In this document: piece by piece, positions 49,837 through 63,172 of the stretch
Numbering within the stretch: the first letter of the stretch is position 1
Layout of the letters: every line of letters starts with the position of its first letter
Source of the DNA: Cyclobacteriaceae bacterium
GTDB lineage: Bacteria; Bacteroidota; Bacteroidia; Cytophagales; Cyclobacteriaceae
Reading direction: 5' to 3'
Length of the DNA stretch: 64,000 nt
Assembly: GCA_028285445.1 (NCBI GenBank)
Contig: JANQPQ010000024.1
Coordinates: forward strand, 62,001 to 126,000
Position numbers and translations under genes: made by a program
Notes under the pieces: model-generated
Databases searched by the model: none
The model's input: the letters and a program-made list of their open reading frames with translations, nothing else
What the model was told of the DNA's origin: nothing

Positions 49837-50628
49837 TTATTTCTTTTTACCGGGCCGGGTAATTTTATCTTCCAGGGAGAGCATCCTATTTTCAAGCATA
49901 AGAATTCGTTCATCGAGCATCTTGGGTGGATTAAGGTAGGTGGTGTATGCTCCCTTAACCTGCCAAGCTTCTAAAATCTCATCTTTCTTAAGGCTTGTTG
50001 TTGGGTAATTGGGGTCATCCGCAATAAGATCAATTGATTTGGTTGTTGTTGCTTGTAGCCTCCTGGTGATGATGCCGTCAGCGGTAACAATCGCATATAT
50101 GTTGCCAATCTTAAACTGTGCTGGCGAAACCAATGCTGCCAAAAGAATATCTCCATGATGCAGGCCATTGTGGTTGTATTCCATCTCGCTACCATTGAGT
50201 TCAAAAGCCCTTGATGATCCTTTGAAATTTACAGGCAACTCTATGTAGGGGAGGTTTGAGACAAAATCCTTGTTCTTGTAGTTAACTACGTATTCCAGGT
50301 AGTTATCTACCCTCACCAAGCCGATGCCACCTTTTCGATAGGCCTTTTCTGGTGCTTTGGTAAACTTATGAGCGACGTCAAGTTTCTTATTGAGTATATC
50401 AAAGCTGTAAAGGTCGCTTACCGATAATTCCTTGTTGAGGAGCAAATCTATTGATATGCCAAAATAATTTGCAATTTGTATGATGGTCGCAATTTTTGGC
50501 TCCGCTCGACCTTCCTCGTAGGCACCAACACTTCCTCGCGTAATATCAAATATTTCCGCAAATCCAGCCTGAGAGAGCTTTTTGAGTGATCTTATCTTCT
50601 TTATGTTTTTACCTATGTTGGATGTCAT
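49837..50628 (-). CDS. XRE-family regulator with C-terminal S24/LexA-like domain
   Basis: A 263-residue DNA-binding protein. N-terminal helix-turn-helix (about 6-65) with LKKLSQAGFAEIFDITRGSV and GAYEEGRAEPKI. A C-terminal S24-like domain (about 130-230) is visible as YIELPVNFKGSSRAFELNG and LHHGDILLAALVSP, IGNIYAIVTADGIITRRL. The usual catalytic Ser/Lys pair is not obvious (the Ser lies in GSEM rather than GDSM; RRL in place of the Lys), so self-cleavage is doubtful. It is divergent from the YbjN/PspA operon and shares its 188-base promoter region, so it is a candidate regulator of that operon. Confidence 0.85.
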   Translation of the reverse strand: MTSNIGKNIKKIRSLKKLSQAGFAEIFDITRGSVGAYEEGRAEPKIATIIQIANYFGISIDLLLNKELSVSDLYSFDILNKKLDVAHKFTKAPEKAYRKGGIGLVRVDNYLEYVVNYKNKDFVSNLPYIELPVNFKGSSRAFELNGSEMEYNHNGLHHGDILLAALVSPAQFKIGNIYAIVTADGIITRRLQATTTKSIDLIADDPNYPTTSLKKDEILEAWQVKGAYTTYLNPPKMLDERILMLENRMLSLEDKITRPGKKK

Positions 50629-50816: not shown

Positions 50817-51212
50817 ATGAGTGAAAACTATTTTCAGAAAGTAAAGGACTACCTGCAAGAATTAGATTATAACATAACCCACGAAAACGAAGAGGAAGGC
50901 GTAATAGTAGTAGAAAGCGAGTCTAATGGAATAATTAATCTGGTTTTGGGCGTTGCCGATCCATTACTAATTGTAGAGCAATTCATATTTGAATTGAACA
51001 ATGCATCGCCGGATGTTTATAAGCAATTATTGCAAAAAAGCCGTGATATTATTCATGGAGCATTCGTTCTGGATGATACCGGAACCAAAGTATTATTCAG
51101 AAATACACATGAGTTGGAGAATCTGGATCTCAATGAGATAGAAGCCACACTTAACTCTCTTTCGCTGTTGCTTGGAGAGTACGCAGAAGAAATCATTCAG
51201 TTCAGTAAATAA
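50817..51212 (+). CDS. YbjN-like (secretion chaperone-fold) protein
   Basis: A 131-residue cytosolic protein with the alpha/beta pattern of YbjN/type III chaperone-like proteins: YFQKVKDYLQELDYNITHEN, then EGVIVVESESNGIINLVLGV, and a C-terminal helix ending LSLLLGEYAEEIIQF. Such proteins often sit with PspA family members, as here. Probably the first gene of the operon continuing to 55948. In the enterobacterial yjfI-yjfJ neighbourhood the first position is filled by another small protein of unknown role. Confidence 0.8.
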   Translation: MSENYFQKVKDYLQELDYNITHENEEEGVIVVESESNGIINLVLGVADPLLIVEQFIFELNNASPDVYKQLLQKSRDIIHGAFVLDDTGTKVLFRNTHELENLDLNEIEATLNSLSLLLGEYAEEIIQFSK

Positions 51213-51241
51213 TATAACTAACGACTATAAATTATATCAAT

Positions 51242-51967
51242 ATGAAAGTTTTTAAGAGACTATTTAAGATTGGTGAGGCCGAGGCGCATTCAGCTATCGA
51301 TAAATTGGAAGATCCTATAAAGATGACTGAGCAGGGTATCCGCGATTTAAAATCAGACCTTGATAAGAGCTTACAGTCATTGGCGGAAGTTAAAGCCATG
51401 GCGATTAGAGCTAAAAACGAGTCTGAATCTCATCGTAATAAAGCAAAAGATTACGAAAACAAAGCCATGCTTCTCTTGAAGAAAGCGAAGGATGGCAATA
51501 TGGATGCCAGCGAAGCAGACAGGCTGGCTAGCGAGGCTTTGGTGAAGAAGGATGAAGCCACTACTCAAGCTGCTAGGTCTAAAGAGGAGCAAGAGAAGTT
51601 TGAGAACAATGTAGCTCAACTAGATCAGAACGTAAAAAAGCTCAAGTCGCAGATCAGCCACTTTGAAAATGAGCTAAAGACACTAAAGGCTCGTGTTAAG
51701 GTGAGTTCAGCAACAAAAAAGCTAAACAAGCAGATGGCCCAGATCGATTCTTCAAGTACGGTTTCGATGCTTGAGAGGATGAAAGACAAAGTAGAGGAAG
51801 AAGAGGCTTTGGCTGAATCTTATGGAGATATTGCCAACGAAAGCAGAAGTCTGGACGAGGAGATCGATGCAGCCATAGAAAGTGGATCAGCAGAAGAGAA
51901 GGCGTCAGACGACTTGGCTGCCTTAAAAGCAAAGCTTGGCATGGATAAAAAAGAAGGAGAGGAGTAG
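51242..51967 (+). CDS. PspA/IM30 (phage-shock A) family protein
   Basis: A 241-residue, nearly all-helical protein of the PspA/Vipp1/IM30 family, which binds stressed inner membranes and assembles ESCRT-III-like rings. Family features: LFKIGEAEAHSAIDKLEDPI at the start, KMTEQGIRDLKSDLDKSLQS, and coiled-coil heptads to about residue 160, then a short acidic tail. It follows YbjN by 29 bases, and its stop codon lies inside a hairpin/T-run (51959-51982). Among enterobacteria the corresponding gene is yjfJ. Confidence 0.93.
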   Translation: MKVFKRLFKIGEAEAHSAIDKLEDPIKMTEQGIRDLKSDLDKSLQSLAEVKAMAIRAKNESESHRNKAKDYENKAMLLLKKAKDGNMDASEADRLASEALVKKDEATTQAARSKEEQEKFENNVAQLDQNVKKLKSQISHFENELKTLKARVKVSSATKKLNKQMAQIDSSSTVSMLERMKDKVEEEEALAESYGDIANESRSLDEEIDAAIESGSAEEKASDDLAALKAKLGMDKKEGEE

Positions 51968-51982
51968 GAACTCCTCTTTTTT
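51959..51982 (+). terminator. Terminator-like hairpin overlapping the pspA stop codon
   Basis: GAGGAGT (51959-51965) and ACTCCTC (51970-51976) form a perfect 7-base stem with a four-base loop and are followed by six T (51977-51982), immediately before the ATG of the next small gene. The TAG stop of pspA is inside the hairpin. This would reduce downstream transcription relative to ybjN-pspA; partial termination (attenuation) rather than complete stop is likely, since the downstream genes are closely spaced. Confidence 0.75.
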
Positions 51983-52138
51983 ATGATTAATACAATGAAC
52001 AATTTCCTAAAAATCTTTCTGGTAGTAGTAGTTCTGCTCTTCATATCTAGCTTCCTGTTTAGATTTCTGTTGAAGATTGGGATCATAGCCCTGGTAGTAT
52101 TGGGAATTATCTACCTTGCAAGAAAGGTATTTGAATAA
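51983..52138 (+). CDS. 51-residue membrane protein in the PspA operon
   Basis: A short frame of 51 residues (ATG 51983, TAA stop; a second ATG at 51995). Nearly all of it is hydrophobic: FLKIFLVVVVLLFISSFLFR, then LKIGIIALVVLGIIYLARKV, so one or two membrane spans with a basic middle. It begins right after the hairpin T-run and ends 14 bases before the DUF4178 gene. Similar small hydrophobic genes accompany PspA loci (for example PspD/PspG-like proteins). Function unknown. Confidence 0.75.
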   Translation: MINTMNNFLKIFLVVVVLLFISSFLFRFLLKIGIIALVVLGIIYLARKVFE

Positions 52139-52152
52139 AGAATATTGATAGA

Positions 52153-52704
52153 ATGGGATTATTCGACTTCTTAAAGAAAAAAGAGAAAGAGCCTGATTAC
52201 GACGTAACCAACCTCAAGCTCACAGATCTCGATCATGGATTTATTGTAGACTACAATTTGAAGTCGTGGCAGGTAAAAGAGGTGTACGAATACGATTGGG
52301 GTAACAACAACTTCAGCCAGGAGTTCATGCTTGATGCCGGCGACGAGGTGGTTTACCTGGGCATTGAGAATAAAGGCGAGTTGTGGATTACAGTGAATAA
52401 GTCCATAAATATTAGAGAATTGGGTGAGGACATCATTGATAAGACAATTAGGAAAGAGCGCCCACCGAAGAAGTTAGAGTATGACGGTACTACCTTCCAC
52501 TTAGATTCGGACAATGCTGGATATTTTAACGACAAAACCAAGGGGACTGATGATTGGGAAGAGTTAATTTCCTGGGAATATTATGATGATAATGAAGAGC
52601 AGGTACTAGGAATTACACAGTGGGGTGAAAGAGATTTCGAGGCGTCGGTAGGGAAGGTTGCGAAGGAATATGAATTTTCCGACATAATTCCTGCCAGTTC
52701 TTAA
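52153..52704 (+). CDS. DUF4178 domain protein
   Basis: A 183-residue cytosolic protein with one DUF4178 domain (about 20-175): LTDLDHGFIVDYNLKSWQVK, then YEYDWGNNNFSQEFML, and VYLGIENKGELWITV, VLGITQWGERDFEAS. DUF4178 proteins commonly occur near PspA, DUF350 and spermidine synthase-like genes; their biochemical role is unknown. It starts with GLFDFLKKKEKE, a basic amphipathic start that may touch the membrane. It lies between the small membrane protein and the lipoprotein. Confidence 0.88.
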   Translation: MGLFDFLKKKEKEPDYDVTNLKLTDLDHGFIVDYNLKSWQVKEVYEYDWGNNNFSQEFMLDAGDEVVYLGIENKGELWITVNKSINIRELGEDIIDKTIRKERPPKKLEYDGTTFHLDSDNAGYFNDKTKGTDDWEELISWEYYDDNEEQVLGITQWGERDFEASVGKVAKEYEFSDIIPASS

Positions 52705-52722
52705 AATACCTTAACTTTAACC

Positions 52723-53463
52723 ATGAGAATGCAGCAAATGATGAAGCCTACCAGAATACTACTAGTACTAGCTGCCTTGGCGCTGCTGTCAAATTGCGGC
52801 GGGAAAAAATTTACCAAGAATTATATCGATGAAGTTGTAAGGGATATGCCTACGGGCAGGGTATTTAGCGTAATTCTGCATGATATGGATGTGCAGGGCA
52901 ACTTCATGCATGATTACTATCATCAATACAAAATAATTGAGGAGACAGAGCCAGGAAAGCCCGAAGAGGAGCTTACTGGTTGGGTTGAAGTTAGTGAAGA
53001 CTACTTTAACCAAAACGTTAATAATATGGGCATGGAGCTGGTTCATCGGGGAGAAGATGGTAAGGTGGTGAAATCTGTGAGCCCTCCTGGCTACAACAAC
53101 TATGTGGGCAATCCCAAGTATGGTCATTGGCAGAGCAGCGGTGGGCATAGCTTCTGGGCCTTTTATGGGCAGTACGCCTTCATGTCGTCCATGTTTAATT
53201 TAATGACCTACCCTGTCCGGCGGTCATATTATGATGACTACCGAGGCGGCTACTATGGGCGGCGGCCTTATTATGGACCCACAGTTGGCGGATCTCCTTA
53301 TTATGGAACAAACAGCCCTTATACACGCTCTACCAGGCCAAATTCGACCTGGAGTAGAAATACCTCAACTTTCAAGAATCGGGTGGCCAGTCGTACTTCC
53401 AGATCAAGCTCTCGCTACGGTGGCTCTCGTAGCCGCTCCAGAGGGGGAGGATTTGGAAAATAA
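52723..53463 (+). CDS. Lipoprotein with Arg/Ser/Gly-rich tail
   Basis: A 246-residue protein (ATG 52723; ATG 52741 gives a shorter leader). The leader ends ALLSNCGG, a probable lipobox. Residues about 30-165 form a mixed domain (EVVRDMPTGRVFSVILHDMD; YHQYKIIEETEPGKPEE; PPGYNNYVGNPKYGHW). The last 80 residues are rich in Tyr, Arg, Ser and Gly and end in RSRGGGFGK. The RGGxF ending recalls DUF1190-type lipoproteins of the yjfM group, but the resemblance is only in the tail. It precedes DUF350 by 29 bases. Confidence 0.8.
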   Translation: MRMQQMMKPTRILLVLAALALLSNCGGKKFTKNYIDEVVRDMPTGRVFSVILHDMDVQGNFMHDYYHQYKIIEETEPGKPEEELTGWVEVSEDYFNQNVNNMGMELVHRGEDGKVVKSVSPPGYNNYVGNPKYGHWQSSGGHSFWAFYGQYAFMSSMFNLMTYPVRRSYYDDYRGGYYGRRPYYGPTVGGSPYYGTNSPYTRSTRPNSTWSRNTSTFKNRVASRTSRSSSRYGGSRSRSRGGGFGK

Positions 53464-53492
53464 TGGAAGCCTTAGCCTAAACAAGCATACCT

Positions 53493-54359
53493 ATGTTTAC
53501 CTACTATCTCGATGCCGCAATTACTACTGTAATTTACCTGGCAGCATCGTTCGTACTGTTCATTGTTGGCAAGTTCGTTTACCAGATATTTCACCCGAAG
53601 GTGAAGGTTGCATATGAGCTAGTTGAACATGATAACTTTGCATTCGCCATTTCTTACGTAGGTTACTACATCGGGCTTTTGCTTGCAGTAGGTAGCGCCG
53701 TAGTTGGGGAAAGTAGCGGTCTTTGGCTAGACCTTATGGATATTGGCGTGTATGGAGCTTTGGCTATTGTGCTGCTTAACCTTTCAATCATCATCACGGA
53801 TAAATTCATACTGCGGCAGTTTAGTGTTAAGAAAGAAATCCTGGAAGACAGAAATATGGGTGTGGGTGTTGTGGAAGCGGCAGTTGCAATTAGTACAGGT
53901 CTTATAATCCTGGGAGCAATCCATGGCGAAGGTCACGGTGATGGCGGACCGATCGTTACCGCCGTTCTGTTTTGGTTGTTCGGCCAAGTTTTACTTTTTG
54001 CTACCACTATCTTCTATAATGTTGTAATTCCTTACAATGTTCATAAAGAACTTGAGAAAGATAACTTAGCAGCCGGTATTGCATTTGCCGGCGCCATCAT
54101 TGCCGTGGCCAACCTAATCCGTTTTGCCCTTGCTCATGACTTCGAAAGCTGGATTTTGACAGTTGAAGATGTTTTAGCCGATGTTGCTATAGGTTTGGTA
54201 TTCATTCCTTTAATGAGATTTCTTACTGACAAACTCTTGCTACCTGGGCAAAACCTCACCGATGAAATCGTCAATCAGGAGGTCCCTAATGTGGGAGCGG
54301 CGTTGGTAATGGCATTTGCTTACATTGGCGGTTCCATTCTTATAACCTGGGCACTTTAA
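53493..54359 (+). CDS. Tandem DUF350 membrane protein with fourfold repeat
   Basis: A 288-residue membrane protein with about eight hydrophobic segments. It contains four matching motifs, each an Asn followed by small residues that begins a membrane helix: NFAFAISYVG (Asn48), NMGVGVVEAA (Asn121), NLAAGIAFAG (Asn191) and NVGAALVMAF (Asn266), spaced 70-75 residues. DUF350 proteins are made of two such repeats, so this is a tandem DUF350. The family is linked to PspA and polyamine-type genes (YjfL in enterobacteria). Possibly forms a channel or ring in the membrane; unproven. Confidence 0.9.
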   Translation: MFTYYLDAAITTVIYLAASFVLFIVGKFVYQIFHPKVKVAYELVEHDNFAFAISYVGYYIGLLLAVGSAVVGESSGLWLDLMDIGVYGALAIVLLNLSIIITDKFILRQFSVKKEILEDRNMGVGVVEAAVAISTGLIILGAIHGEGHGDGGPIVTAVLFWLFGQVLLFATTIFYNVVIPYNVHKELEKDNLAAGIAFAGAIIAVANLIRFALAHDFESWILTVEDVLADVAIGLVFIPLMRFLTDKLLLPGQNLTDEIVNQEVPNVGAALVMAFAYIGGSILITWAL

Positions 54360-54406
54360 GATCTCATTAAGCCAGCAGACATTTCCTGTTTGTTTAATTT
54401 AGTGGT

Positions 54407-55948
54407 ATGGCCTTAAGATCTAACATCTTGAAGGTGGCACTTTTCGCTACAGGATTGGCAGGTATAGTCGCCGAATATACCTTGTCAACTATGGCCACTT
54501 ATTTCTTGGGTGATTCGGTTTTTCAGTGGACCATGATAGTGTCTATTATGCTCTTTGCCATGGGCTTTGGCAGTAGACTTAGTAAGAACATCAAGACTAA
54601 CCTGCTGCGCAACTTCATCACAATTGAGTTCGTGCTATCCATTCTTACAGCATTTGTGTCAGTTATTACTTATACCGTTTCGGCCTATTTTGAATATACA
54701 GGGGCAATTATCTACCTACAGAGTATAGTCATCGGACTATTAATTGGTATGGAGATTCCTATTGTGATAAGGCTCAACGATGAATTCGAAGACCTACGGG
54801 TAAATGTTAGCACCGTAATGGAAAAAGATTATTACGGTAGCTTACTGGGCGGGATGTTCTTCGCTTTTGTCGGATTACCCTATTTGGGACTTACCTACAC
54901 GCCATTCATTCTGGGGAGTATTAATTTCTCTGTGGCGCTTGGACTTTTTCTTGTGCTGAGGTCGAATTTGGATACAAAGGTTCGTAGCAGGTTAACAGTT
55001 GCTACCATATCGGTAATGCTTACAATTGCAACAGGAGTAGTGCTCGCGAAGGACATTATTCGTTATGGTGAGCAATCTAGGTACAAAGACAGGGTGGTGT
55101 TTGATGCGCAGACCAAATACCAGAAAATTGTCATGACGCAGTCTGACCAGCATTTCTGGCTATTTATTAATGGCAATCAGCAACTCAGTTCTATAGATGA
55201 AGTCTTGTATCATGAGCCGTTAGTGCATCCTGTAATGGCTCTTTCTCGCAGCCCTACTGATGTTTTAATTATGGGAGGCGGAGACGGAGGAGCTGCCCGG
55301 GAAGTGCTAAAGTATTCATCGGTGGATAGAATTAAGCTTGTTGATCTTGACCCAGTAATGACAAGGCTTGGACAGGAACACCCACTTCTGGTTGAGATGA
55401 ATGCTGGTGCAATGAATCATCAAAAAGTGGAAATAATTAATGAAGATGGGTTTACATATTTGGAACAGGACTCATCATATTATGATGTGATTATTATTGA
55501 CCTTCCGGATCCGAAAACTGTGGAACTGGGCAGGCTCTACTCATTTGAATTTTACAAGTTGTGTGAAAAGAGATTACGGCCCAATGGTTTGATAATCACG
55601 CAAGCTGGTAGCCCTTACTATGCCGCCAGAGCCTTTAATTGTATTAATGCTACGTTGTCAGAAGCGGGTTTTAGCACAGTGCCACTCCATAATCAGGTTG
55701 TTACATTAGGTGAATGGGGCTGGGTGATGGGTGCAAAGGTTGGTAGCGCAGCAGAGTTAAAGGAGGCTTTGAAAAGTTTACGCTACGATAACGTCGCAAC
55801 CGATTGGATTAACCATGAAGCCATGACCTTGATTACCTCATTTGGAAAGAAGATATTTATTGATGACGACAAGCCCGTGGAAGTTAATCGCATACACAAT
55901 CCTGTTTTGTACAAGTACTACCTTGACGGGAATTGGGATTTATATTAG
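54407..55948 (+). CDS. Membrane-anchored spermidine synthase-like aminopropyltransferase
   Basis: A 513-residue protein: about seven membrane segments (residues 7-215), then a soluble spermidine synthase domain (about 220-490). Aminopropyltransferase motifs are intact: INGNQQLSSIDEVLYHEPLV (substrate loop), GGGDGG (290-295), LVDLDP, IIIDLPDPKTVELGRLYS (catalytic Asp) and LIITQAGSPY. It should transfer the aminopropyl group of decarboxylated AdoMet to an amine acceptor on the membrane-facing side. It ends the plus-strand operon, 26 bases from the end of the convergent helicase gene. A second paralogue lies at 61362. Confidence 0.9.
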   Translation: MALRSNILKVALFATGLAGIVAEYTLSTMATYFLGDSVFQWTMIVSIMLFAMGFGSRLSKNIKTNLLRNFITIEFVLSILTAFVSVITYTVSAYFEYTGAIIYLQSIVIGLLIGMEIPIVIRLNDEFEDLRVNVSTVMEKDYYGSLLGGMFFAFVGLPYLGLTYTPFILGSINFSVALGLFLVLRSNLDTKVRSRLTVATISVMLTIATGVVLAKDIIRYGEQSRYKDRVVFDAQTKYQKIVMTQSDQHFWLFINGNQQLSSIDEVLYHEPLVHPVMALSRSPTDVLIMGGGDGGAAREVLKYSSVDRIKLVDLDPVMTRLGQEHPLLVEMNAGAMNHQKVEIINEDGFTYLEQDSSYYDVIIIDLPDPKTVELGRLYSFEFYKLCEKRLRPNGLIITQAGSPYYAARAFNCINATLSEAGFSTVPLHNQVVTLGEWGWVMGAKVGSAAELKEALKSLRYDNVATDWINHEAMTLITSFGKKIFIDDDKPVEVNRIHNPVLYKYYLDGNWDLY

Positions 55949-55974
55949 ACAATAACTTCTTTAGCGGAGCGCAG

Positions 55975-58692
55975 CTAGCCTTTGGAAGATATAATATCAA
56001 GTATACCTTCTATACAGGAGTCTCGGTCGTAATACCAATTGGAGAATGGAAGCGGCAACATCCGCACTCCTGATCGATCCAGGATTTCATATTCGATGAT
56101 GCTGTTAGCATGAAAGAACTTTCCAGGGTAGCCGATTAGATTGAGCCCATAGTATGAGCCATCGGTAGTTTCTAACAGGACGTCAATCAGAATTCCAGCC
56201 AACTCGTAACCCAGGTGGATACTCTTCACCTTGCCTTCAAGAACATCTGCAACGCTGGCAATGAATTTGTCTCCTTCCTGGTGAATTTCATCGTTGATTG
56301 CAGGGTTGCCAATAGTACTGATATACATACCAAGCAATGAATCTCCGGCAAGATCAGATGCTTGCAAAGACATGAATGAGGTCAGTTCAAACTTCGATCT
56401 TGTAACCGTGACATTGAATGTAGGGCGGGTGTTAAGATAATTATACGCCGTTGCATGCGATTCCTTGTCTATACACCAAGAGATAAGAACTATATCGCGC
56501 TCATCTCCCTGGAATTCATAAGGGGTGCCAACTTTTATCTTGTGTCTTTGGATATTATGCAGTGAAATCTTCCTTTCAATTAATACCTTAAGATGTTCGG
56601 CCTGATTTCTAAAGGGGCTGATAATCCCTATGGTGTTAGCTACCTCCGGCCTGAGATCTTCTTCATTTTGTACCACTTCCAGAAGGTGGTCAATGATTTT
56701 CATGGCCTCAATCTCATTAACCCCATTTTTATCCCTGTAGCCATTCACATAAACTACATTGGCAGTGTCGGCATTGTGGTGTGGAAGGGCTTTTATTACT
56801 CTGAGCTTGTTATCGTAGAAATGCTGATTACTGAATCGTATCAGGCTTTCATTTCCCCTAAAGTGTTCATCCAGAAAAACCACTTGGTCTTGAGAAGTGA
56901 TTTTGTGGAAATAAATATCAAGGATGCTATTGTCTCGATAATTAAGATAATTGTCAGGAAAGTTGGTGACATCATATTTTTCGGCCAGTATTCGGTTGAA
57001 TCTCCTGGAAATAAAGCTATAATGCCTCAGTTGCATGGGATCACCAACTATCACCACCTTCTTTGCTCTTTGCAACGCTGGAAGGCAAGAGGCTATATCG
57101 CATTGCGTGGCCTCATCAATTATAACAACGTCAAACATGTCGCTGTCCATAGGGAATACTTCATACAAGTCACTTAGTTTACAAGCCCAGATGGGAATTG
57201 CGCGGAAGATGATATTAAAGTTAACCTCAGACATCAGTTCCTCCTGCTTGCCTAGCGTTCTTGCCCGAAGTGCTTGCAAGAATGTGCGGAGCATTTTCCG
57301 ATAGTTTTTCAGGGTACTCCAAAGTCGGTATTCATATTTCAATTCTATGTACCGCTTTAGATTCTCGATGTGTTTTTCTTTACGTTGGTAATATTCTAAT
57401 GCAATTTCCCAATGCGGGTGTTGAAGGCTGTTGCGCCACTTGATGTAGCGTTTTTTTAGAGTAGCAAATACGCCTGACTTCTCTTCGAACAAAAACTTGC
57501 CCCATGTGAGGTCATCTTCTATCTGATCATATAATTTCGTCTCCAGATCCTTAAGTCTGGCTGCGTCTGCCGCAATCTGGATCTTAGGCTTATCAGCTTC
57601 GTCCTCGCTTAAAGCGTATATTGCTGGAAGCCCGGATAAAATAATCTTGAGTTTATGCTTTAGTAGCCTCAAATACTCTCTGCTACCAGCTCGAATAGCC
57701 ACACCATCAATTTCTAACTCCTTCTCAATTTTATCAATAATCACATCTACTGCCTGGTTGGTCTTGGAAACAATCAGCACAGATTTGCCCCTGGTAAGTT
57801 GGTCTATGGCAGCTGCCGCGATTGTATAGGACTTGCCCGTACCGGGAGGGCCGATAACCAAGGTTTCGTCAAAGTGGTTGATACTATCGAGAATATTTTG
57901 TTGGGGTACGCTTAAAATTGCAGGTACATATGTACTTTCCTGCTCCGCTCCACGAACTTCCTGAAGATCGGGCCTGCTAAAATTATCTACAGCCCTGGAA
58001 TATTCCGCCAGATCTGCCATTTCCTTTAGTTCTGAAATGACTCCCAATGTTCGAGATGAGTGAGTGATAACTCCGAGGCCCATGGCTGGATAAATGGTAA
58101 TTGTTTCGTTCTCAGATTTCCATTTATGCTCTACTTCAGATTTCTTAGACAGTGTTGGATAAAGCAACAATTGCTCTGCATCAAAATTGTTGAAATTATC
58201 TTCAAACATCCCCCTGAGGTTTCCAAAACTGCCAAAGTCCTGAGGAGCAGCCAGGATGTCTGCAAAAAGCTCAGTAATCTCCAGGGAACTGTCCTTCCGG
58301 TAAGGTTCAAGGAATGTAGTATTGGGAAATGCCAGAGATCGATTTATTTTGAGATAGTGTTCGTCATCTTCGTCTTTTATGATTTCAGCTGGATAGAAGA
58401 ATAGGGGCGCCGCCAGTCGGTGCCGCCGGTTCTCGTTTCCAACCTTCCCGCAAGCAAAGCAGGTAAAAAGATAAAGAGACTTCTCCTTTTCGTATTCCGC
58501 AAGTTTCTTAATTACCTCCCTCGAGTATTCCTGGCTTATTGGTAGCGTCGGTAAATTCCCATTTATCAACTCGTCTTTACCTTTCAGTAGAAGTTTGTTC
58601 TCAACTTTCGCGGAAAAGAAATTGGTAAGGTTGACCGTTCTGGTGTCGGCTTCATAACAATCTTTGTAGAGTTTAAGTAGGTTCTGCATCAT
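55975..58692 (-). CDS. Superfamily I helicase / AAA ATPase
   Basis: A 905-residue protein with a UvrD/Upf1-type SF1 core. N-terminal 270 residues are a separate domain (CFACGKVGNENRR near 78). Walker A is GPPGTGKSYT (281-290), SKTNQAVDV is motif Ia, the Walker B-like DEATQ is at 526-530, and later motifs include VVFLDEHFRG and VTVTRSKFEL. The C-terminal 90 residues (YGLNLIGYPGKFFHANSIIE) resemble a nuclease-fold or substrate-binding domain but catalytic residues are unclear. It is the last gene of the minus operon, three bases after the FAD gene, an unusual partner for envelope and polyamine genes. Confidence 0.9.
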   Translation of the reverse strand: MMQNLLKLYKDCYEADTRTVNLTNFFSAKVENKLLLKGKDELINGNLPTLPISQEYSREVIKKLAEYEKEKSLYLFTCFACGKVGNENRRHRLAAPLFFYPAEIIKDEDDEHYLKINRSLAFPNTTFLEPYRKDSSLEITELFADILAAPQDFGSFGNLRGMFEDNFNNFDAEQLLLYPTLSKKSEVEHKWKSENETITIYPAMGLGVITHSSRTLGVISELKEMADLAEYSRAVDNFSRPDLQEVRGAEQESTYVPAILSVPQQNILDSINHFDETLVIGPPGTGKSYTIAAAAIDQLTRGKSVLIVSKTNQAVDVIIDKIEKELEIDGVAIRAGSREYLRLLKHKLKIILSGLPAIYALSEDEADKPKIQIAADAARLKDLETKLYDQIEDDLTWGKFLFEEKSGVFATLKKRYIKWRNSLQHPHWEIALEYYQRKEKHIENLKRYIELKYEYRLWSTLKNYRKMLRTFLQALRARTLGKQEELMSEVNFNIIFRAIPIWACKLSDLYEVFPMDSDMFDVVIIDEATQCDIASCLPALQRAKKVVIVGDPMQLRHYSFISRRFNRILAEKYDVTNFPDNYLNYRDNSILDIYFHKITSQDQVVFLDEHFRGNESLIRFSNQHFYDNKLRVIKALPHHNADTANVVYVNGYRDKNGVNEIEAMKIIDHLLEVVQNEEDLRPEVANTIGIISPFRNQAEHLKVLIERKISLHNIQRHKIKVGTPYEFQGDERDIVLISWCIDKESHATAYNYLNTRPTFNVTVTRSKFELTSFMSLQASDLAGDSLLGMYISTIGNPAINDEIHQEGDKFIASVADVLEGKVKSIHLGYELAGILIDVLLETTDGSYYGLNLIGYPGKFFHANSIIEYEILDRSGVRMLPLPFSNWYYDRDSCIEGILDIISSKG

Positions 58693-58695
58693 TGC

Positions 58696-60234
58696 TTAGC
58701 CTTCGATATGGTGCTTACCCTTAAGTAACCTTACTGCTTCAATCCCAGAATCCATAGCTTCAAAGAGCAAGGGCAACCGGCTGTTGTCAACTCCGGCATA
58801 CACTAAGTTCTCTGCCGAGCGTCTGTGGTTCTTATCATCAAATAAGTAACCAGGTGATGGGATAGGCATTGCATGCCCCATGGCTTTCATGTGAACCGCT
58901 TCAATGTTGTTTTTCAAATCCTGATCAAAGTACATCGATATCTTATCAATGGTAGCTTGTGCGATTTGCACTTTGTTGCTTTCAACATTGATTAAATCAT
59001 TCCTGCTTTCGGGTGGCAGGCAATAATAGGCCGTAAATACTCTCTTTCGATTGCCTGGGTTTTGTGTGTCAGAATCAATAAAACCAAGAAAGGTCTCATC
59101 TTCGGTTAACATTTCATTTTGGCAATAACCAGGAGTTGGAAGAGCCCCTGTGCAAATTACATTGACCACTATCCAGGGGGCATATCCTGTTGTGGCGAAC
59201 AACTCACCGTCGTCAGGAAAAACATATTTTAGGGCATGCTTCTGACCGGCATAAATTATTTGATTGGTATTAACCTGTATTACTTCATTTCTCACTATAT
59301 CAATTACCTCAACCGCAAATCCACTGTTAGGTTTTTTTACAATTTTCGATATGAGTTGCTGGGTTACAAGATGCTCTTCGCCAACAAAGCTCTTCATTTT
59401 CTCAATGAAGTAGTAGTTGCCTTGTGGCGGTGAGAATAATTCAACCACTTGATTATAGTAGGGCCTGCAGGCGAAATAGTGGATTCCGGCCAGGGCTGAG
59501 ACACTTGAGGCTTCAGCTCCGTAGTCGTCTTTCATATGGTAATCTATTCCTCTAGTGAAATCTGGTGTAAGGGAAAGGTTTTGCTCCAGAAACTTCAGAA
59601 AACTTATATCATTCAGTTGATGCAGTTGCTTGGAAATGGAACGGGTCGGCATCACCATCTGTCCACTAAAGGGAAGTATGAGCTTTAAAAAGTCATTCTT
59701 AATTGGCCCTTCGGCAAGCACATCCCTGCGAATAACCCCATGATCAAAGCACTGGTTCTTTCTGCGGTGCATAATCAAATGCTGTTCCTCGTTGAACCCC
59801 CAAGACTGCTTCCAAGGTTGGTACTTAATGATTTCTAACCTTTCGAGTAGACGTAACACTTCCGTGCCATAATTCTTGGGATATGCTAAGTCGTAGTGTG
59901 CACCTTGCGAGATTGGTAATCCATTGTGCTTGATGGATGATGAGCTACCCCCAAACTGTGTCGATAACTCGTATACCTTAAAGTCATCATAACCCTGCTC
60001 TTTCAGTTCGCAGGCTGCAGCCATGCCGGCCACCCCGCCACCAACCACAAGGGTTTCTATTTTCCTGGGTTGTCCGGTTGGAAGAGATAGCTTGTTCAGA
60101 AGTAGGTGGCCTACCGTAGCATCGGAATGGACCGTAATCGGATAATCACTTGTGTCGGTTTGCCAATCGCACGATTTGAGCAACAACGGCAAAGTGATGA
60201 GGGAGCTCTTCTTTATAAAATCGCGTCTTTTCAA
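58696..60234 (-). CDS. Exported FAD-dependent oxidoreductase (amine oxidase-like)
   Basis: A 512-residue flavoprotein starting at TTG 60234. The N-terminus KRRDFIKKSS resembles a twin-arginine motif, followed by LPLLLKSC, a possible lipobox, so export as a folded flavoprotein and membrane anchoring are both plausible. The FAD motif ETLVVGGGVAGMAAACELKE lies at about residues 61-80, and the C-terminal FAD motif is VYAGVDNSRLPLLFEAMDSG. This is the layout of amine-oxidase-like flavoproteins. In this operon it could oxidise an aminopropyl product; substrate untested. Its start overlaps the stop of the membrane protein by four bases (TTGA). Confidence 0.85.
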   Translation of the reverse strand: MKRRDFIKKSSLITLPLLLKSCDWQTDTSDYPITVHSDATVGHLLLNKLSLPTGQPRKIETLVVGGGVAGMAAACELKEQGYDDFKVYELSTQFGGSSSSIKHNGLPISQGAHYDLAYPKNYGTEVLRLLERLEIIKYQPWKQSWGFNEEQHLIMHRRKNQCFDHGVIRRDVLAEGPIKNDFLKLILPFSGQMVMPTRSISKQLHQLNDISFLKFLEQNLSLTPDFTRGIDYHMKDDYGAEASSVSALAGIHYFACRPYYNQVVELFSPPQGNYYFIEKMKSFVGEEHLVTQQLISKIVKKPNSGFAVEVIDIVRNEVIQVNTNQIIYAGQKHALKYVFPDDGELFATTGYAPWIVVNVICTGALPTPGYCQNEMLTEDETFLGFIDSDTQNPGNRKRVFTAYYCLPPESRNDLINVESNKVQIAQATIDKISMYFDQDLKNNIEAVHMKAMGHAMPIPSPGYLFDDKNHRRSAENLVYAGVDNSRLPLLFEAMDSGIEAVRLLKGKHHIEG

Positions 60235-61349
60235 TTCTCTAATAGGAGAGATTTAATATAAGGATTCTTGCTATTGGCTTTCCAGATGTAACCATCAATA
60301 ATATAATGTGCTACTTGTGGTGTCGAAAGAAACGCCAATGCTAAGGCTTGGGCAAAAGGTGTTTCCAAGGCCCTAAAGGGGTAAGTTAATATTTGCTGAA
60401 AGAAATTTTCATTATCTCGATACATAAACATGTCCCACAAGTATTCCTCGCCAAGCGCCAGGATAAACACAACCATCAGCATAAATATGACATTTATGAG
60501 AGCTGATGAAATGGTAAACTTGCCGGCCGCTTGTGCCTTTTTTCGTTCTGTATAAAAGAATATTAGGGCCAGGTAGGGGATGCCATGTGCCACAACGTTA
60601 GTTAAGGAGAAAACGAAATCCGAGTTGAAGTATACGATACCGATAAACCAATTTAAGGCAGTAGTAAGTATCCACAGCCACTTGCCCCAGGGAAAGTATA
60701 ATGCACCCTTGCGATGATGATAAATTTCTTCTGTTAGCCAGGCAATTATTACAAGGAAGTAGGTAGCGGTCAGAATATTATTAGATATGAGCAATGTAGA
60801 TTGGTTAATAAACGGCAGGGATGTCAGCGCTGATCTCAAATTGAAAAAATCGCCTTCAATGAACCAACTAAAATTTCTGGCGGTGTTAATATGCCAATAA
60901 AATACCGGGTATAGCATACCGAAGTAAATCATGAATTTGTCCGAAATAATCTTCTTGACGTCAATCCATCCATACCGGGCCCGGTACAACTGCATGAAAC
61001 CGTATTGTTGCTTTATGAAGTGATAAAGCGCCAGATATGCCAAGACAGTCCAGAATAACTGTATGGAAATGGAGGCCAGTGCAAAGAACCCTACTAGACT
61101 TAGTAAGGGCGCCGCAATTAGCGTCCTTCGATGGCTCCGGAATTCCTCCTTATCAAGGTATGTTCTGAAAATAGTGCTCCAAACATGGCTAACATCTATT
61201 CCCACAATGATTATTACCCAAAACCATAGTGGTATATCTTGGCTAATAACTCGCTCTGGAAGAGAGAAGGCTAATAGCCAGCAAAACCAAACAGGTAAAA
61301 CCAGTACAAGGAGATCTATTGTTCTTGAGAATAACCAAACTTTTCTCAC
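60231..61349 (-). CDS. Polytopic membrane protein, unknown function
   Basis: A 372-residue protein from GTG at 61349 with about nine or ten hydrophobic segments. Motif-like polar blocks on loops: HVWSTIFRTYLDKEEFRSHR (about 55-75), LYHFIKQQYGFMQLYRARYG (about 108-127) and EYLWDMFMYRDNENF (near 305). No family recognised; conserved His and Arg in loops suggest an enzyme or metal-binding membrane protein. It lies in a tight minus operon: 12 bases after the aminopropyltransferase paralogue and overlapping the FAD oxidoreductase by four. Confidence 0.8.
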   Translation of the reverse strand: MRKVWLFSRTIDLLVLVLPVWFCWLLAFSLPERVISQDIPLWFWVIIIVGIDVSHVWSTIFRTYLDKEEFRSHRRTLIAAPLLSLVGFFALASISIQLFWTVLAYLALYHFIKQQYGFMQLYRARYGWIDVKKIISDKFMIYFGMLYPVFYWHINTARNFSWFIEGDFFNLRSALTSLPFINQSTLLISNNILTATYFLVIIAWLTEEIYHHRKGALYFPWGKWLWILTTALNWFIGIVYFNSDFVFSLTNVVAHGIPYLALIFFYTERKKAQAAGKFTISSALINVIFMLMVVFILALGEEYLWDMFMYRDNENFFQQILTYPFRALETPFAQALALAFLSTPQVAHYIIDGYIWKANSKNPYIKSLLLEN

Positions 61350-61361
61350 AGTGCAATGTAA

Positions 61362-62822
61362 CTAGAATTTCCAGGTGCCCTCATTGTAGAGTTGGTAAGC
61401 AATGGGTGAATTCATAGTGTTTATTGTGGAATCACTTACCACTGTGGTGACTTTTCCAAATGAGGTCATCATTTCTAAGGCCTCTTTGTTTAACCATTTC
61501 GTGGGAATATTAATTTCAGCTTGCAGCAGGCTTCCGTGCAATTGGTTAGAGTTTTGGGAGGTGGAAGCCATTATCCATCCCCACTCTCCGAGGGAAGGTA
61601 TTTGATTGTGCATTTTTAGGGTTGAAAACCCACTTGCCTTTAGAGTATTGTCTATCACTTTGAAGGCATTAGTTGCAAAATAGGGGCTACCTGCTTGTGT
61701 CACCAGAATTCCATTGTCATTAAGGACGGAAGCGCACATTTGGTAAAACTCCAGTGTGTAATACTGGTTTAGCTCAATGTCCAGAGGGTCTGGAAGATCG
61801 ATGATAATGGCATCATACTTACTGCGTGCCTCGCTTAGGAATCTAAAGACTTCGCGATGATGTATGCTCACCCCGGAATGCGTCAATGAATTTTTATTGA
61901 GGCTGGTAAATAAATCAACGGTTGATCCCATCTTGGCTAAAGTGGTATCTACTGCAATTAGATCGATGTGAGTCGGCGCGTGTTTTAATATCTCAGCAAC
62001 TGCGAGTCCATTTTCACCACCAACAATGAGCACCTTCTGCGGCTTGTCAATTAAGCTCAATCCGGAGTGAACTAAAGGTTCAAAATATAAAGCATAATCA
62101 ATTGAACTAAAGTAATTTAAGCCATTATAATAGTACCAATAGTGGCCTTTCCATAAAGTGATATCAACTTCCTGAAAGGAGGTCTTACCGGAAAAAGTCA
62201 CCTGGTCATAATATTTAGATTGGTTGGCGTATAGTACCACTTGAGGTGTAAAAAGTAGATTAACAGCTACTAGTCCCACCGACATTATAATAAATGTGGA
62301 TGAAGCAAGCATAGCAGTACTTCCAACCAGGTAGGCGGCGTACAAGAGTCCCGCGAAGCTAGCAAACCCAAAAGCTATATATTGGTCCAGAACGATGGAA
62401 GTAATTATTCCTATAACGGTTCCAAGAACTGCAACTTTCAACGTTAAAGTGAGGCCTTCGGAATGTAAAGGGTTTTTCATTGAAAGGGTGATGCTTATTG
62501 AGAGCAGGGCGATAACCCCTAGGATAACAAGATTTATTTGCTGCCAATATCCGTAAAGCCAATAAACAATGCTAACTGATAAGGCGCCAGTGATTATGCT
62601 GGCTAACACCAGTATTTGCTCCAGACGGTTTGTATGGGGGATAATCTTAAGCGTGCCAACTGATGAAATTACAAGGATAACTGCCGCCACTATGTAATCG
62701 CTTAGGTGAAAGCCGTAGTAATAAGTACCAATTGCTAGTAGTTCCCGCAAAATTGCACCCAGCAACAATGCCAGCGTAAATATTATGCTCAGGTGAATGA
62801 AAGCAGGTCTGGTAAATTTCAC
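61362..62822 (-). CDS. Membrane-anchored aminopropyltransferase paralogue with altered active site
   Basis: A protein of 486 residues from GTG 62822, with GAGGG upstream; an in-frame TTG at 62834 is also possible. It has the same plan as the gene at 54407: membrane segments in the first 200 residues, then a spermidine synthase-like domain. Key motifs are changed: GGGDGG reads GGENGL, and DEVLYHEPLV reads DYALYFEPLV. IIIDLPDP and LVTQAGSPY are retained. It may bind the nucleotide but use a different acceptor or be regulatory. It sits between speD (57 bases upstream) and the membrane protein. Confidence 0.85.
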   Translation of the reverse strand: MKFTRPAFIHLSIIFTLALLLGAILRELLAIGTYYYGFHLSDYIVAAVILVISSVGTLKIIPHTNRLEQILVLASIITGALSVSIVYWLYGYWQQINLVILGVIALLSISITLSMKNPLHSEGLTLTLKVAVLGTVIGIITSIVLDQYIAFGFASFAGLLYAAYLVGSTAMLASSTFIIMSVGLVAVNLLFTPQVVLYANQSKYYDQVTFSGKTSFQEVDITLWKGHYWYYYNGLNYFSSIDYALYFEPLVHSGLSLIDKPQKVLIVGGENGLAVAEILKHAPTHIDLIAVDTTLAKMGSTVDLFTSLNKNSLTHSGVSIHHREVFRFLSEARSKYDAIIIDLPDPLDIELNQYYTLEFYQMCASVLNDNGILVTQAGSPYFATNAFKVIDNTLKASGFSTLKMHNQIPSLGEWGWIMASTSQNSNQLHGSLLQAEINIPTKWLNKEALEMMTSFGKVTTVVSDSTINTMNSPIAYQLYNEGTWKF

Positions 62823-62878
62823 AGTTACCCTCAAATTTTGAATTATTCGAAAAAATGAAGCTGGCCAAGCATAGTTAA

Positions 62879-63172
62879 CTACAGCTGAGTTAGCCTGTAT
62901 GCCTCTAACTCAATCATGAAATTCTTGTACATCTTGCGGTTGCAACTTGCCAGCTCAATGTAGGTTTTGCCTTCTTCAGGAAACGTGTGCACAGCAAAGT
63001 GGCTTTCTGAAATTAGCCAAATTCCGGTATAGCCATATGGCTCAAAATGATGTTCCATAAAGTTTATTATGCCAAATCCGGAATTTGTCAGTAACTCTTC
63101 GAAATCTTGTTTAAGGGCATCGGGGTCAGTGTCTGTTACCCACCCGCTGTAATTATCTATTCGTGCTTCCAC
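62879..63172 (-). CDS. speD: S-adenosylmethionine decarboxylase (SpeD, prokaryotic class 1B)
   Basis: A 97-residue proenzyme starting at GTG; slightly shorter than usual (about 115-130). The pyruvoyl-forming Ser57 in SESHFAVHTFPEEGKTYIE, the processing His62 and Cys77 in IELASCN are all present at the spacing known for prokaryotic AdoMetDC. It supplies decarboxylated AdoMet, the aminopropyl donor. First gene of the minus operon containing an aminopropyltransferase paralogue. No ornithine or arginine decarboxylase is in the window, so putrescine must come from elsewhere. Confidence 0.93.
   Translation of the reverse strand: MEARIDNYSGWVTDTDPDALKQDFEELLTNSGFGIINFMEHHFEPYGYTGIWLISESHFAVHTFPEEGKTYIELASCNRKMYKNFMIELEAYRLTQL

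Follow-up and report, generated by a model that had tools for sequence, protein, structure and literature searches.

C-terminal lysine tails suggest candidate acceptors for membrane aminopropyltransferases in a PspA-linked envelope system

What does a membrane-bound aminopropyltransferase modify when its gene lies beside those of PspA, DUF350 and a lipoprotein? The question is raised by a 64,000-nucleotide stretch (hereafter the window) of contig JANQPQ010000024.1 (positions 62,001 to 126,000) from a Cyclobacteriaceae bacterium (assembly GCA_028285445.1; 5.48 Mb in 57 contigs). In this window, a plus-strand operon ending with a membrane aminopropyltransferase (APT1) converges with a minus-strand operon encoding the S-adenosylmethionine (AdoMet) decarboxylase SpeD, a second membrane spermidine-synthase paralogue (APT2), a polytopic protein, a flavin adenine dinucleotide (FAD) protein and a superfamily 1 (SF1) helicase (Table 1). 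An original prediction, made from the DNA alone, joined both operons into one undescribed system, in which decarboxylated AdoMet (dcAdoMet) from SpeD feeds two transferases acting on a membrane or peptide target. We computed gene content, synteny, C-terminal tails, active-site residue losses and loop charges for these proteins across relatives (genomes numbered G, loci numbered L). The reading we favour is that APT1 aminopropylates the C-terminal Lys of the co-encoded lipoprotein, using dcAdoMet from SpeD, in a PspA-linked envelope system. As everything beyond the sequences is inferred, i.e. donor, acceptor, compartment and every enzyme role (those of APT2, the FAD protein and the polytopic protein included), we give this mechanism about an even chance.

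The proposal is carried by a code, read from translated sequences and new here, in which the C-terminal residue separates acceptor candidates linked to an aminopropyltransferase (APT) from those linked to an ATP-grasp ligase. All 103 APT-linked candidates end in Lys, a count that carries no phylogenetic correction, as is true of all tail counts given here; Lys ends 12.7 percent of long open reading frames (ORFs). The PspA-type lipoprotein ends in Gly-Lys in each of the 19 genomes having it near APT1, window included, and is also Lys-ended in six more where APT1 lies elsewhere or across a contig break; a tail without Lys in G397 was an artefact of a contig end. Lipoprotein and membrane APT occur together, the lipoprotein being found in 20 of 21 genomes with the enzyme versus 2 of 38 without it. 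Three genomes with a PspA-type lipoprotein and without a PspA-type APT carry Arg tails (RRRR, RRRR and RKRR) and, as G433 and G450 belong to one genus, these amount to about two independent events. A tblastn search of the lipoprotein against plasmids gave no match.

Acceptors linked to an ATP-grasp ligase end in Gly, Ser or Ala, and in Lys in 0 of 21 cases. YgiB and YjfM of Escherichia coli, encoded beside YgiC and YjfC (annotated as peptide-spermidine ligases, an activity reported in the title of Pederick et al. 2023), end in GG; seven more DUF1190 proteins from plasmid records end in GG, once in GS, with a YgiC homologue within the fetched stretch for six of them; and 12 Bacteroidota proteins encoded next to GSP_synth genes have the endings GG, GS, SS or HA, never Lys. 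The enterobacterial yjfIJKLMC/ygiBC loci share with the plus operon PspA, DUF350, a membrane-anchored acceptor candidate and, in several members, an RGGFG-type tail; they differ in having an ATP-grasp ligase in place of SpeD and APT, and an acceptor ending in GG, not Lys. The window genome (G000) gave no match to PF03738, the ATP-grasp GSP_synth family.

Other acceptor candidates follow the same code. In a compact cassette (see below), a peptide with one transmembrane (TM) segment, chosen by its His-Lys (HK) ending, bears that ending as a separate protein in 76 of the 77 cassettes; in the remaining one (L082, 5091-6596, Chitinophaga skermanii) it is fused to the long DUF4178 protein and ends in HHK, a fusion that supports a cytoplasmic N-terminus of the peptide. 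Among 8,792 small ORFs of the same loci, 90 end in HK, i.e. about 14 beyond the peptides themselves, and the last two peptide residues are invariant while positions further in vary. The more positive flank of the acceptor peptides is the N-terminal one (58 to 5), and the tails of both lipoprotein and peptide are predicted to be extracytoplasmic. Seven distant APT contexts also all end in Lys: RHGK in Gemmatirosa, SHK in Novosphingobium and Burkholderia, VK in Tritonibacter, SGK in Ensifer and in Alteromonas (a lipoprotein) and YGK in G434. A penultimate His was observed where a compact-type FAD gene is linked, and GK or VK in loci without a gene of that type; Gemmatirosa, with FAD, has HGK.

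Is APT1 equipped for such a reaction? APT1 retains all nine active-site positions of E. coli SpeE (with E108D), including the Asp residues for dcAdoMet binding and catalysis, and the nine residues (E108 as Asp allowed) are kept in 104 of 107 membrane APTs. The three exceptions are the window APT2 and the APT2-like proteins of G404 and G410, all of which adjoin an FAD gene or share its operon. The second transferase of the original prediction therefore stands as a membrane spermidine-synthase paralogue and not as an enzyme with a conserved active site, five of the nine residues being lost, among them the dcAdoMet-binding acidic residues (D88N, E108A, D140E). Because of these losses we read APT2 as a probable pseudoenzyme, and the idea of two transferases fed by SpeD is not supported, since APT2 is without a dcAdoMet site. 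Loop charges gave the same topology for all 107 membrane APTs, i.e. N-terminus in, seven TM segments and C-terminus out, with a mean of 9.9 Lys+Arg on the in side versus 0.9 on the out side and a median TM7 hydropathy of 2.1. This pattern places the synthase domain, by prediction, outside the cytoplasm (periplasmic), consistent with the extracytoplasmic tails of lipoprotein and peptide and with export of the FAD protein by twin-arginine translocation (Tat).

The window genome has a single copy of SpeD. In the relatives L197, L200 and L203, speD lies directly downstream of APT1, and the predicted tie between SpeD and the PspA/DUF350/transferase operon is upheld. A genome-wide profile search found no spermidine-synthase domain besides those of APT1 and APT2, so that the window genome has no soluble spermidine synthase, a point that counts in favour of the proposed mechanism. 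Nine other genomes (G397, G404, G405, G407, G410, G415, G422, G440 and G448) have, apart from the APT1 locus, a frame of about 415-480 aa that matches SpeD as well as the synthase domain; it probably encodes a soluble SpeD-SpeE fusion serving ordinary spermidine synthesis. In compact cassettes, SpeD has Ser at the catalytic-Cys position in 66 of 69 matched sequences; the SpeDs of the window, L200 and L203 keep Cys.

Where, then, do the minus-strand genes belong? A genome scan with the polytopic protein returned at least 529 relatives, from which 80 loci were kept and fetched. A compact cassette was present in 77 of them, made up of SpeD, a long DUF4178 protein, the small one-TM peptide, a short DUF350 protein, an APT, an FAD protein and the polytopic protein, the other three being short or truncated contigs; SpeD fell inside the fetched stretch in 71 of the 80 loci, and a sequence match to the short DUF350 was obtained in 65. 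Most members of the set are from Bacteroidota, as are the named loci nearest to the window; the others include contigs of metagenome-assembled genomes labelled Leptospiraceae, Verrucomicrobia, Melainabacteria and Acidobacteria; distant matches to the polytopic protein (L021-L027) lay outside the cassette and were set aside. We assign the genes for SpeD, the polytopic protein and the FAD protein to this cassette, an assignment that is part of what is new here. The window holds a partial and divergent version, without the small peptide, the long DUF4178 and the short DUF350. Across other genera of the same family and order, the minus-operon genes recur as pieces only: the APT2-FAD pair is convergent with APT1 in G404, with a gap again of 26 bases, an APT2-like gene accompanies FAD in G410, and FAD lies beside APT1 in G444. 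Co-occurrence in relatives holds for the plus operon and its SpeD link and not for the helicase and the polytopic protein beside APT1. The helicase recurred in none of the other cassettes or APT1 loci compared; it is probably a lineage-specific passenger, and we withdraw it from the system.

Some neighbourhoods had features of their own. In Solitalea agri (L040, 3297-6770), the long DUF4178, HK peptide and DUF350 genes are tandemly duplicated before one APT. A similar ORF of about 298 aa, which we take to be possibly cupin/JmjC-like, immediately precedes the gene of the Lys-tailed lipoprotein in G406 (L195, 5658-6551) and G418 (L193, 5457-6356; oriented coordinates). A potassium-channel-like ORF precedes APT2 in G404 (L191, 7481-8272); Ravi et al. 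2024 (PMC11237479) mention a potassium channel in the ATP-grasp group.

Conserved RR (Tat) and Cys (lipobox) residues were found across the FAD proteins. PF01593 was above cut-off in those of the window and of L018 (Pedobacter sp. Leaf170); similarity to PDB entries concerned mostly the FAD-binding part, and the nearest solved structures included polyamine and other amine oxidases. The polytopic family has invariant Asp and Glu residues besides its four invariant His. An AlphaFold2 model of the L018 homologue reached a predicted local distance difference test (pLDDT) score of 91 and had no PDB fold match (a first run on four sequences, pLDDT 55, was discarded). The invariant His had suggested a Brp/Blh-like carotenoid oxygenase, an idea dropped for want of any Pfam or PDB fold match.

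These elements can be arranged into a mechanism. SpeD would make dcAdoMet, which would cross the membrane, perhaps via the 7TM domain or DUF350, and the 7TM-anchored APT1 would move its aminopropyl group to the side-chain amine of the terminal Lys (...GGGFGK). Since the Lys side chain is an aminobutyl amine, the reaction would be the one that turns putrescine into spermidine. It would yield glycyl-N6-(3-aminopropyl)lysine, an end similar to the glycyl-spermidine that the ATP-grasp ligases YgiC/YjfC form on peptides, and it is because the two would differ by one carboxylate that we make the proposal. In compact cassettes, the acceptor would be the one-TM peptide instead of the lipoprotein. The FAD protein, exported by Tat, may act on the added group by oxidising it or taking it off, and APT2 may partner the FAD protein non-catalytically. 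As to the predicted target, the lysine tails favour a peptide or protein over a membrane component. More broadly, bacteria may have two interchangeable routes to a spermidine-like envelope-protein tail, with spermidine either ligated to a C-terminal Gly by an ATP-grasp enzyme or built on a C-terminal Lys by an extracytoplasmic APT; N6-(3-aminopropyl)lysine would then be a new bacterial protein modification comparable to hypusine, one that an exported flavin oxidase would erase or mature together with a partner pseudo-transferase. To this wider picture we give somewhat less than an even chance. In the library of papers searched, none dealt with aminopropyl-lysine under that wording.

Several points weigh against the proposed lysine modification. 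The tail counts ignore kinship, and groups other than Bacteroidota are thinly sampled. In G433, a membrane APT occurs without a visible Lys-tailed partner, and the window FAD and APT2 proteins are divergent from their compact-cassette counterparts. A periplasmic catalytic domain needs a route for dcAdoMet across the membrane. Family and close-homologue searches found no SpeD in G398, G406, G418 and G430 (the best match in G430, at an E-value of 0.3, was not significant), which have APT1 and a Gly-Lys tail, and the surroundings of three of these four APT1 loci showed no SpeD motif; the APT1 active site was checked and is intact in G406, G418 and G430. A search of the SpeD-less relatives for a class 2 decarboxylase, run without a positive control, found none. 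These four genomes would have to draw dcAdoMet from another source or use a different donor. Furthermore, a C-terminal Lys also attaches Braun's lipoprotein to peptidoglycan. The terminal Lys could thus be linked to peptidoglycan by an L,D-transpeptidase while the APT modifies something else, which would suit the predicted extracytoplasmic tails. We think this unlikely, as Lys tracks the APT, giving way to Gly, Ser or Ala with the ATP-grasp ligase and to Arg where the APT is gone; the loci examined showed no L,D-transpeptidase, though no systematic search for one was made.

The target might instead be a membrane lipid or other small molecule, the Lys tail being a recognition or anchoring signal for complex assembly. 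Cells with the system studied by Li and co-workers reportedly contained no spermidine, and the system is said not to have complemented a spermidine synthase mutant. Aminopropylation of other substrates is suggested by Ravi et al. 2024 (PMC11237479). Such a target has perhaps one chance in a handful, for it leaves unexplained both the change of tail residue from APT to ATP-grasp systems and the invariance of only the last two residues of the compact peptides. A plain role of SpeD and APT1 in converting putrescine to spermidine would agree with the conservation of every catalytic residue compared and with an APT1 score above the NF002956 equivalog cut-off; it is made improbable by the membrane fusion, the tight linkage with DUF350, DUF4178 and lipoprotein genes, the predicted periplasmic domain, and the separate SpeD-plus-SpeE-matching frame of about 430 aa that several relatives have besides APT1. 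There is equally little to recommend the minus-strand operon as an unrelated neighbour. Beside APT1, only the APT2-FAD pair or FAD recurs, in few relatives, and the polytopic and helicase genes do not; yet the arrangements of G404 and G444 repeat that of the window in part, and in about 70 genomes homologues of SpeD, the FAD protein and the polytopic protein are encoded together with an APT in a single operon. Our preferred reading remains aminopropylation of the terminal Lys by APT1.

How much of this was already described? PspA group two of Ravi et al. 2024 (PMC11237479) has the same gene set as the window plus operon. Its CesT/Tir-PspA dyad is present as adjoining PF22550 and PF04012 genes, its 7TM-spermidine synthase as APT1 (PF01564 at 266-442 plus seven hydrophobic segments), and its 8TM DUF350 and DUF4178 proteins by Pfam; the lipoprotein is conserved in relatives at the position expected for the Ctha_1186 type, a likeness judged from position and not from a Ctha_1186 model. 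The RHH regulator that closes group-two operons in some cases is not in the window, where APT1 is the last plus-strand gene and the convergent helicase follows. The operon is real and conserved in relatives, and it was wrongly considered undescribed, as was the SpeD link, for which the same paper cites Li et al. 2019; the central inference of the original prediction was largely in print. The text of that paper is silent on the lysine tail, the catalytic-domain orientation, APT2 and the polytopic protein, and we found no published description of the minus-strand cassette with the polytopic protein or of the lysine-tail code. In the earlier system of Li and co-workers, AdoMet decarboxylases encoded next to MFS-spermidine-synthase fusions and DUF350 were reportedly functional, and a substrate other than putrescine was proposed. 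SpeD is thereby linked to a membrane aminopropyltransferase and DUF350 as in the present loci; the difference is that no acceptor is reported to have been identified there, where we propose a terminal lysine. In hypusine and deoxyhypusine on eIF5A, a lysine side chain bears an aminoalkyl group derived from a polyamine, as proposed here; they differ in that an aminobutyl group comes from spermidine, the lysine is cytosolic and internal, and the enzyme is unrelated to APT.

All genes reported for the locus are present as long open frames, and Pfam and NCBIfam support PspA, DUF4178, two DUF350 stretches, two Spermine_synth proteins, SpeD, the amine-oxidase-like FAD protein and the helicase. The predicted gene list is borne out, apart from the second transferase and the first gene, called YbjN, a family that is its weak secondary match (8e-7) after CesT_Tir_1. 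The two operons end 26 bases apart as predicted (APT1 stop at 55948, helicase stop-end at 55975), with no unusual fold when these ends were checked as a shared terminator. A helix-turn-helix gene with, by eye, a LexA/S24-like C-terminus (49837-50628) is divergent from the plus operon and is a candidate regulator. A defence-system reading was rejected because PADLOC matched no more than domains, namely a helicase core and, for mad2, the synthase domain.

Table 1. Features of the two convergent operons (window positions).
Feature	Position	Strand	Basis
CesT/Tir-like chaperone domain protein	50817..51212	+	PF22550, E 6e-53
PspA/IM30 family protein	51242..51967	+	PF04012, E 3e-46
51-aa membrane protein, strongly hydrophobic stretch, without Lys tail	51983..52138	+	ORF, hydropathy
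DUF4178 protein	52153..52704	+	PF13785, E 6e-19
Lipoprotein ending ...RSRSRGGGFGK, candidate aminopropyl acceptor	52723..53463	+	Translation; homologue tails
Conserved C-terminal tail RSRGGGFGK plus stop; Lys codon 53458-53460, proposed modification site	53434..53463	+	Homologue tails
Tandem DUF350 (YjfL-like) membrane protein	53493..54359	+	PF03994, two stretches
APT1, 7TM segment fused to a spermidine-synthase domain that has intact active-site residues and is predicted to be periplasmic	54407..55948	+	NF002956, 546 bits; residues; topology
SF1 helicase	55975..58692	-	PF13086/PF13087
Exported amine-oxidase-like FAD protein, Tat motif KRRDFIKK, lipobox-like Cys22	58696..60234	-	PF13450, PF01593
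Polytopic membrane protein, family with four invariant His	60231..61349	-	Alignment; no Pfam/NCBIfam match
APT2, degenerate membrane spermidine-synthase paralogue, probable pseudoenzyme	61362..62834	-	H64F, D88N, R93A, E108A, D140E (E. coli SpeE numbering)
SpeD, class 1b AdoMet decarboxylase, processing Ser, catalytic His and Cys	62879..63172	-	PF02675; motif ESHFAVHTFPE...C

The published work consulted on this operon family leaves the acceptor of the membrane aminopropyltransferase unnamed. The tail code names one residue on one protein and reduces that open question to one mass-spectrometry experiment. If the proposal is true, the lysine would bear a protein modification so far undescribed and checkable by mass spectrometry, PspA membrane stress systems would be tied to this new modification, and the ATP-grasp and aminopropyltransferase branches would be united under one product chemistry.

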